Below are positions 8,121 through 32,217 of a DNA stretch of 34,870 nucleotides, piece by piece; positions within the stretch are counted from its first letter, which is position 1, and each line of letters opens with the position of its first letter. The stretch comes from Deltaproteobacteria bacterium (GTDB lineage Bacteria; Desulfobacterota; Desulfobaccia; Desulfobaccales; 0-14-0-80-60-11). The position numbers and the translations under genes were made by a program. The stretch is from NCBI GenBank assembly GCA_016874915.1, contig VGSW01000021.1, positions 1 through 34,870 on the forward strand, written 5' to 3'. Under the pieces are notes generated by a model. It saw nothing but the letters and a program-made list of their open reading frames with translations. It made no database searches and was not told where the DNA came from.

Positions 8121-8483
8121 ATGACTAAGTTGCTGTTTATCATCACCAAGGGCCTGGAAAAATCCGGCAGCGCCACCCGGGCCTTGCAGTTTGCCAGCAT
8201 CGCCGCGGAGCAGGGAAATCACGTAGAGATTTTCTTGATTGACGAGTCGGTCCATTGGGCCCAGATAGGCATGGCCGACGGTATCCGGGCCTCCACCGGC
8301 GAGTCCATGAAGGATTTCCTGGACTTACTCACCCATAAAAATCACCCCATCCACGTGTGCAAGGCCTGCGCCGACAAACGCCTCATCAGCCCCGATGACC
8401 TGATTACGGGCGCCATCATCTCCCCGGCGCCGGTGCTGGTCAAGATGATGACCAGCCCGGATTATAAGGTATTTACTTTTTAA
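8121..8483 (+). CDS. DsrE/F family (sulfurtransferase-like) protein
   Basis: MTKLLFIITKGLEKSGSATRALQFASIAAEQGNHVEIFLIDESVHWAQIGMADGIR... DsrE-like fold signature; RBS AAGGAG. Confidence 0.8.
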   Translation: MTKLLFIITKGLEKSGSATRALQFASIAAEQGNHVEIFLIDESVHWAQIGMADGIRASTGESMKDFLDLLTHKNHPIHVCKACADKRLISPDDLITGAIISPAPVLVKMMTSPDYKVFTF

Positions 8484-8552
8484 TGAATGATTCATCCGTG
8501 TTTATCTGCGTTAATCGGCGGTTTAAAAAAACTCCCCCAGGAGTCAGCCATT

Positions 8553-11066
8553 ATGCGAAAAAATCCTTATAAAATCTGGAGCCCGGCCCTGGTAGTCCTG
8601 GCCGTGGGACTGGCGCTGCTGCTGCCGTCCCTCGCCGGTGCCAAAATCCGGACACATGCCCCCATCCAGCTGAAGACGGAAGACGGTAAAATCATCAACC
8701 CCCTGACCGGCGAAAACGCCGACCAGCCCTACAGCCCCCGCCAGACCTGCGGCGCCTGCCATAACTACAACGACATCACCAAGGGCTACCACTTCCAGCA
8801 AGGGTGGGACCGGGTTAAGGACAACTTCAATGCCAAGAAGCCGTGGGTCCTGTCCGACGGCATGATGGGCAAGTTCTGACCGCCTTCCTTTCGCCAGTTG
8901 GCGAAAAAGAAGAACGACCATCCCGACCAGATTGACATGACCCCCTTCGGCTTCGCCAGCGCCGGGGACCCCAAAAATCCGGTGATGCCCGGCTGCGGCG
9001 CCTGCCACCCCGGAGGCGGCGGCCTGGAGTTCGACCGGGACGGCAAGCGCTATGACGCCCGCCTCAAGGCCGAACCCCAACTGGCCCAATCCCTGGACGG
9101 CGACTATTTCAAAAGCCCCTGGGACAAAACCGGCGTGGTGGAGGCGGATTGCCTAGTCTGCCACCTGCCGGGCTACAATTTTAAGGACCGCATCAAGCAG
9201 CTGATTATGCTGAACTTCAAATGGGCCTCCACTTCCGCGTCGGGCATCGCCCAGGTCACCGGCACCGTCCGGGAAGGCCAGACCCCCGCGGTGGTGTACA
9301 ACAAGCGCCTGTTCAACGAAGACGGCAAGATTTACCTGGAACTGTCCGGGCCCCCGCCATCGGAGAATTGCACCTTCTGCCACAGCTTTTCCGACATGCG
9401 CAAGCGGGGGTTCTCCTGGAATGACCGGATCAACCACGACGTCCACAACATGAGGGGCATGGCATGTGTGGACTGCCACTGGAGCATTGACAAAGAGCAC
9501 AACTTTGCCAAGGGCGATGAAAACGTCTCCACGGTGCGGGACGACCTGGACAACACCATGAAGAACTGCAAGCAGTGCCACGAACAGGGCTTCATGGGCG
9601 CGCCCCGGCCAGCCCACTTGAGCGTCCGGCCCAACCACCTGGAGAAGCTGGCTTGCGAAACCTGCCATATCCCCACCCTGCACCGGGCCGCGGCGGAGGG
9701 CTTCGACGTCACCACCGGCATGCTGGTCAACTACCCCAAGCTGGGGGCCAAACAGGTGGGCGCGGCCTTCGATTGGAAACCCCGCTACGCTCGCAAGCAC
9801 AAAGACGGCAAGGTCTGGCCGGTGAACAACCTCCTGCCCACCATCTATACCAACCAGGATAAGGACGGCACCTATTATCCGCTCTATGCGAGAGAGATCG
9901 GCAAGGGTTATGAGAAGATCAAAGGCCAGTTAAAGGATAAAAAGCCCAGCAAGCCGGAGCTCCACAAACCGGAAGAGATCAAACTCATGCTCACGGCCCT
10001 GGCGGAGACCCTGAAGGGCAATAAACGCTTCCAGCAGGTGCGGCCCAATTACCATAAAGGCGGCCAGATGCACTCTTTAAATGAGAAAGGCGAGATCGTC
10101 ACCGCCAAGGACGAGACCTGGTGCGGCGAAGGGGAGGGCTTCAACGTTAACCACAACGTGGCCCCGGCCAAACTGGCCCTGGGCGCGAACGGCTGCGCCG
10201 ACTGCCACTCCTCGGAAGCTCACATGTTCAAGGGGCAGATCGTCACCGACCTCTTTGGGTCTGACGGCAAGCCCACCTACATCAGTTCCGGGCGCCTCAT
10301 CGGCTGCCAGCCCTGGGCCTATTACGTCAACCAGTTCCACCAGACCTATCTAACGCCTTACGTGAGCATCATCCTCTTGCTCTTAGTCTTCGGACTGGTG
10401 CTGCACTACACCGGGCAAGGCCCCAAAGGGGCGGACTTCACTTATGAACCCGGGGAAATCCTGCGCTTCACCCTGACGGAACGGTGGACTCACCTGGTCC
10501 GCATGATCGCCTTTTTGCTGCTCACCCTCACCGGTTATATCTTCTTTTACAACAACGTCACCATGCTCCGGATGTTCTTCAGCACGCCGGCCAGTGCGGT
10601 GATTTTCCACTGGGTGACTGGCCTGATCTTCCTGGCGGCGTCGGTGGTGGCCCTAGTTCACTGGGCCAAGGACGCCCGCTTTGCGGATTATGACAAGGAG
10701 TGGCTCCGGAAACACGGCGGCTACTTCGGCGGCAAGGAACTGGAGGTGCCGGCCGGAAGGTTGAACGCCGGCCAGAAGATCTTTTTCTGGCTTACGGCGG
10801 GCCTGAGCCTGATCATGGGTGCAACGGGGGTTCTCTTGATCTTCAAAAACAGCCTGCCCCTGACCTTCAACTGCCTCATATCCACTATTCACGGCTTCTT
10901 CGCCATCATCTTCGTGGCCGCCATCATCGCCCACGCCTATTTGGGGACCATCGCCAACCCCGGCACCTGGCGGGCTTTGGTGGACGGCCAGGTGGGGCGC
11001 AAATGGGCCAAGAAGCACCATTCGGAGTGGTATAAAGAGATCGCGGCGAAGGAAGAAAAAGAATAA
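8553..11066 (+). CDS. Probable selenocysteine-containing octaheme c-type cytochrome fused to C-terminal membrane b-type cytochrome domain (Sec at codon 109, TGA 8877-8879)
   Basis: ORFs 8487-8879 and 8898-11066 are in the same frame, separated only by one TGA (…GMMGKF-U-PPSFRQLAKKKN…). Signal peptide MRKNPYKIWSPALVVLAVGLALLLPSLAGA; eight CxxCH motifs (1 before, 7 after the UGA); C-terminal TM helices with histidines (VLHYTGQG, RWTHLVRM, FHWVTG, IHGFFA, AHAYLG). Confidence 0.8.
8880..8918 (+). promoter_or_regulatory. SECIS-like stem-loop immediately downstream of UGA
   Basis: After TGA: CCGC-CTTC-c-TTTCGCC-AGTT-GGCGAAA-aa-GAAG; 7-bp apical stem plus 4-bp lower stem; loop starts 16 nt after UGA and has G at position 2. 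Confidence 0.7.
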
Positions 11067-31977: not shown

Positions 31978-32158
31978 TGTCCTCACAAGCCGCCAGGCAG
32001 GTCTTCTGGCTCTGGGATCAACCGGGAGGAGGCCGCCTTCCCGCCGGGCTTAAACCTGGCAGTGGCCGGCCTTGCGGCCTTAAACTCCCCTCGTCCCCCC
32101 ATCACAGCGGCGGGTCCGCCCCGGATTCGCACCGGGTTCCGGGATGCCTGGTGGTTTG
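31978..32158 (-). promoter_or_regulatory. Cobalamin (B12) riboswitch
   Basis: Reverse strand contains CCGGTGCGAATCCGGGGCGGACCCGCCGCTGTGATGGGG, GCCACTGCC, and B12 box AGCCAGAAGACCTGCCTGGCGG, followed by terminator. Confidence 0.93.
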
Positions 32159-32217
32159 TTTTCTTTTAGAAAAAATCCGCGGCCAAGTCAAGAAAAGATT
32201 GATTTATCCTAATATCT

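Follow-up and report, generated by a model that had tools for sequence, protein, structure and literature searches.

Our analyses indicate that the gene at 8553..11066 on the forward strand of the window (the whole 34,870-nucleotide stretch of DNA that was analysed) encodes a selenocysteine-containing octaheme c/b556 fusion protein. Selenocysteine (Sec) at residue 109 is strongly supported by comparison with homologues, and in the absence of peptide or selenium data we place its probability at roughly 0.97. The protein belongs to a family that has not been listed among selenoproteins, and its heme domain is remotely related to octaheme tetrathionate reductase (OTR).

A single reading frame interrupted by one UGA

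In the ORF listing of the window, ORFs 8487-8879 and 8898-11066 share a common frame and the sole interruption is a TGA at 8877-8879. The first-pass annotation had described this arrangement, and both the frame and the translation bear it out, as does its remark that the codons from the TGA to the next listed start (8898) are all sense. Reading the TGA as U gives one uninterrupted protein of 837 aa, from ATG 8553 to TAA 11066, with U in the context GMMGKF-U-PPSFRQLA; full-length homologues with the same TGA were also found. A predicted signal peptide (approximately residues 1-30, MRK...SLAGA, 8553..8642, forward strand), based on a hydrophobic segment and with an inferred cleavage site, and one CxxCH motif precede U. 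The remaining seven of the eight CxxCH motifs, and then the membrane domain, follow it. This is the distribution noted earlier, and the opinion that neither half alone would make a sensible protein is upheld.

Mechanical ORF calling indeed yields two ORFs, as had been foreseen for automated annotation. The same output could be taken to favour a pseudogene, frameshift or sequencing artefact, with a nonsense TGA dividing the gene into two defunct parts. However, genomes of different phyla, those of named strains among them, keep the same TGA in proteins that are 48-92% identical, and protein conservation is strong in both halves. Since the TGA is conserved in many independent genomes, a sequencing error and a recent nonsense mutation are both excluded. 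Cys homologues and a covarying hairpin (see below) also speak against this reading, which is refuted by conservation and retains virtually no probability.

The residue at this column was followed across homologues. A scan of one genome per species recovered 16 other loci, including two fragments of one genome (L007 and L017), and TGA was present at exactly this codon in 15 of them. Further homologues came from searches of 395 phylum genomes and 29 order genomes. Among distinct close relatives, 21 of 22 have TGA at the column and the remaining one has TAT, and more distant relatives have Sec in 14 cases and Cys in 16. With duplicates removed, 35 distinct Sec genes were used: 21 from the window's own clade, 11 from a second clade flanked by RW-U-SPAP or RY-U-SAAP, and three from a third subclade (L062, L103 and L116) flanked by GKW-U-PPA, two of whose members have 15-16 CxxCH motifs. 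The 16 Cys genes include members from Acidobacteriota, and their flank, NW-C-SPAPLYRQL, matches RW-U-SPAPLFPQL and F-U-PPSFRQL of the Sec genes. On a tree, the Sec, Cys and other states amount to five changes and are strongly clustered. The TAT exception, which encodes Tyr, occurs in a Bryobacteraceae locus (L013) where the flank has been rewritten; because SelB is present in that genome, the Tyr is not explained by lost Sec machinery. One further subclade has neither Sec nor Cys at the column. Judging by these exceptions, Sec/Cys is dispensable for some members of the superfamily.

A stem-loop directly after the UGA had only been supposed in the first-pass annotation. It is present as a bacterial SECIS hairpin, TTTCGCC-AGTT-GGCGAAA, at 8889..8906 (forward strand), with a 7-bp stem, the loop AGUU and a spacing of 16 nt from the UGA to the apical loop. 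Its predicted folding energy is -8.8 kcal/mol for the hairpin or -13.2 kcal/mol for 45 nt (fold z=-2.95), and it conforms in all respects to the constraints of the published model for bacterial SECIS elements (PMC13188914). Compensatory changes were seen at three of the seven stem pairs (UA/CG, UA/GC and CG/AU/GC) across 21 diverse Sec genes. The covariation score was 0.265 against a shuffled mean of 0.120, a value reached in none of 500 shuffles, and sliding the helix as a control gave scores of at most 0.115. The third subclade has a stem with changed pairs, GCGGCC/GGCCGC and GCAGCC/GGCTGC. The hairpin codons CAG-TTG are found in all 35 Sec genes, and the Leu codon of the loop is TTG in 35/35 Sec genes versus 0/9 Cys genes that keep the QL motif (Fisher P 1.4e-9, which is optimistic since the sequences are related and not independent). 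The hairpin was absent from the Cys homologues compared.

The source genome also encodes the required machinery: SelB (352 bits), SelA (624 bits), SelD (380 bits) and tRNA-Sec with anticodon TCA, the last in two copies (L018 and L019; G000 C117 and C13). The frame would be open under any sense reading of the TGA, which leaves room for its decoding as another residue such as Trp or Gly, by a variant code or general suppression. Against this, the Sec machinery is complete, the SECIS hairpin is confined to TGA-bearing genes, and homologues with the same flank have Cys, not Trp or Gly. We regard such decoding as highly improbable, and retain Sec as the residue at position 109. SelB was found in 25 of 25 tested Sec-form genomes. 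Taken together, the original proposal of a Sec-containing multiheme cytochrome is supported: it would have been refuted by a lack of selA, selB, selC (tRNA-Sec) and selD, by a lack of homologues with Cys or Sec in this column, or by an erroneous TGA, and none of these applied.

Some observations on the machinery stand apart from this argument. The two tRNA-Sec genes may be a real duplication or may reflect the estimated 5% contamination, and either is possible. The SelD gene of the source genome (L036) itself has an in-frame TGA, and selenoprotein-type SelD is known to carry one. The presence of SelB was also considered as a discriminator of Sec from non-Sec carriers, and it fails in that role, since nearly all carriers have SelB.

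An octaheme domain fused to a cytochrome b556 domain

The eight CxxCH motifs, all on the forward strand, lie at 8748..8762 (heme 1), 8994..9008 (heme 2), 9150..9164 (heme 3), 9369..9383 (heme 4), 9465..9479 (heme 5), 9567..9581 (heme 6), 9654..9668 (heme 7) and 10194..10208 (heme 8). By alignment, the heme 2 motif, CGACHPGGGG, occupies the position of the catalytic heme in OTR. The match to the OTR model TIGR04315 is weak (31 bits against a cut-off of 375), and other members of the family also fall far below this cut-off. A profile-profile comparison (hhalign) with an alignment of true OTRs kept the hemes in register at E=1.2e-19; in it, the VKHG motif of OTR is aligned with the KRG at heme 4. 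The Lys of KRG, Lys284 (9402..9404, forward strand), is present in 41 of 47 sequences. We take the VKHG Lys as Lys153, the heme-2 ligand of OTR; Lys284 is conserved, and its ligation has not been shown.

An AlphaFold model of the heme domain built with 47 sequences reached a pLDDT of 88 and replaced an earlier run on the whole protein with 16 rows, in which the heme domain was poor (pLDDT 52). The only significant PDB match of the heme-domain model in Foldseek was the OTR structure 1SP3 (E=3e-7, TM 0.39/0.47). PDB sequence searches (queries A1 and A4) returned only FdnI and weak NrfA matches. The window protein and OTR thus share the octaheme fold, eight CxxCH in the same order, remote profile homology and the Lys of the heme-2 motif. 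In contrast, the window family occupies a separate branch of the tree, has a fused b556 domain and has one conserved distal His fewer. Based on these comparisons, the heme domain is a remote relative of OTR that lies outside TIGR04315 as defined.

The membrane portion, at 10458..11048 (forward strand), is a formate-dehydrogenase-gamma-like cytochrome b556 domain of the diheme b type, identified with TIGR01583, PF01292 and an alignment to formate dehydrogenase-N gamma (FdnI, 1KQF chain C). The TIGR01583 score of 128.2 bits exceeds the cut-off of 115.85, and the domain aligns with FdnI over its full length, with His at all four positions that match heme ligands of FdnI. These results substantiate the claimed fusion to a membrane b-type cytochrome. 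FdnI differs in forming a complex with FdnG/FdnH, whereas the b556 domain of the window is fused to the octaheme cytochrome. Because of the OTR profile and fold matches and the b556 match, we describe the protein as an OTR-like octaheme domain joined to a diheme cytochrome b on the quinone side. It is very probably a quinone-linked fusion, with the topology predicted and the quinone coupling inferred. By inference, including its periplasmic location, the protein would work like an OTR-type reductase tied to the quinone pool. CbcL is a quinone-linked fusion of multiheme c-type and diheme b-type cytochromes in which the membrane part comes first and which is not known to be OTR-like. Of the CbcL-like architecture first suggested for the window protein, fusion to a b-type cytochrome is borne out; the heme domain is related to OTR and has not been shown to be CbcL-like.

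Possible roles of Sec109

Comparison strongly supports recognition by SelB of the hairpin directly after the UGA at 8877, with Sec inserted at residue 109. The mature protein would lie on the outer face of the cytoplasmic membrane, according to its predicted topology, with the C-terminal b556 domain exchanging electrons with quinone. The OTR-like octaheme domain would hand electrons on to a site of catalysis close to heme 2, with Lys284 and Sec109 inferred to form its pocket. There, by a less certain inference, Sec most likely serves either as the nucleophile in catalysis or as a heme ligand that can exchange, and the reaction would reductively split a sulfur-sulfur (or N-O/S-O) bond in a sulfur compound or an N-oxide. 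In the absence of activity data, a quinone-linked seleno-octaheme oxidoreductase is a probable description as long as no substrate is named. A catalytic position for Sec109 is only slightly favored, its geometry being inferred, and the suggestion that the substrate is a sulfur compound is tentative and also lacks activity data. Cys64 of the OTR structure 1SP3 lies near the OTR active site. We considered whether Sec109 and Cys64 are equivalent by sequence and do not claim this, as a low-confidence alignment puts another residue at that position. The spacing from Sec to heme 2 differs, at approximately 39 residues in the window family versus 10 in OTR.

An alternative, of which the heme-ligand part was raised as a possibility in the first-pass annotation, is that Sec109 serves as the axial ligand of a c-type heme in place of a distal His, where it would tune electron transfer or provide a switchable site. 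Only six non-motif His are invariant (80, 298, 316, 355, 362 and 534), so that, with Lys284 counted, one distal position among the eight hemes is unassigned. By this count, one heme position is left that either a substrate or Sec could occupy. In OTR, seven hemes are bis-His and one, heme 2, is Lys-ligated (PMC11024163). Further, among members with a conserved flank, Cys is the only residue that repeatedly replaces Sec. However, the subclade without Sec or Cys keeps the same six His, indicating no link between the missing His and Sec, and a non-conserved His or water could occupy the site. We consider this alternative unlikely.

A narrower version, in which Sec109 ligates a c-type heme directly and exchangeably and the protein is a quinone-coupled respiratory reductase with an active site of heme, Lys and Sec, is similarly doubtful. 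We know of no earlier natural selenolate-ligated heme enzyme; if heme ligation by Sec109 were true, this would be the first, as far as we are aware.

The protein might also be no more than an electron conduit, like CbcL or MmcA, with Sec in a structural or redox-relay role that is not catalytic. A fusion of multiheme c-type and b-type cytochromes resembles CbcL in outline. The window protein has an OTR-like multiheme scaffold in common with MmcA, matching the MmcA model TIGR04314 weakly (49 bits, where the cut-off is 250). MmcA itself functions as an electron conduit and has seven hemes, without heme 2 and its Lys (PMC11024163); in contrast, the window family keeps both. The use of costly Sec, with parallel Cys forms, is inferred to point to chemistry as well. 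A conduit role is thus improbable, and a quinone-linked oxidoreductase remains our preferred description.

Related selenoproteins, distribution and gene neighborhood

One in-frame TGA was also observed in genuine OTR genes, which score above the TIGR04315 cut-off, from about 30 places of the phylum; these loci include L072, L076, L077, L082, L086, L088, L090, L093, L095-L097 and L099, with approximately 18 more. In those inspected, the TGA lies between hemes 1 and 2, in the context NNF-U-I/V or NSF-U-I just before heme 2, and aligns with Cys64 of 1SP3; the hairpin differs in sequence from that of the window family. A 2026 catalogue contains a single OTR selenoprotein, only as a GenBank annotation, and also lists ExtKL and the GSU2204 family (PMC13188914). 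On the evidence of these reading frames, Sec in OTR is far commoner than the single catalogue row suggests.

ExtKL (NF040886) corresponds to Geobacter GSU2937+GSU2936, an identity that we inferred from two papers. Like the window protein, it is a multiheme c-type cytochrome with an in-frame UGA; it differs in having five CxxCH and an unrelated C-terminal part, and NF040886 gave no match to the window protein at E<=0.001. None of the NCBIfam selenoprotein models matches the window protein as a family, and the literature searched for Sec cytochromes of this kind held nothing beyond ExtKL, the GSU2204-family protein and the single OTR entry. Multiheme selenoproteins, including one of the OTR family, have thus already been catalogued; the window family itself is real and so far unlisted.

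The result is a defined selenoprotein family, present in sulfate-reducer-like bacteria, Ammonifex and others, whose genes each appear as two broken ones under ordinary annotation. Considered with the TGA-bearing OTRs, it shows that several lineages employ Sec or Cys between hemes 1 and 2 of an OTR-like octaheme scaffold, which points to real chemistry, and it offers a way to approach the physiological role, so far unknown, of OTR-like enzymes. Since named strains carry the gene (Fundidesulfovibrio agrisoli SG106, Ammonifex thiophilus SR and Desulfoluna limicola ASN36), these ideas are directly testable. A plasmid search returned only the b-type domain among the matches listed, and no relatives were found in a viral scan.

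Immediately upstream of the octaheme gene, at 8121..8483 (forward strand), is a gene for a small DsrE/DsrF-like protein of 120 aa (PF02635, E=9.5e-18) that is likely co-transcribed with it. DsrE-like homologues adjoin or lie near the octaheme gene, on either side, in approximately nine distinct loci and are missing in several relatives. We infer, with less certainty, that this neighbor might traffic sulfur. The wider flanks consist of unrelated housekeeping genes, with thiC upstream and ftsH downstream. In Ammonifex (L012:4587-8110), iron-sulfur and HdrA/FlpD-like genes of a kind known from electron-bifurcating complexes come after the Sec octaheme gene. Two riboswitches were also identified in the window with Rfam, for cobalamin at 31979-32166 and for fluoride at 358-436, both on the reverse strand.
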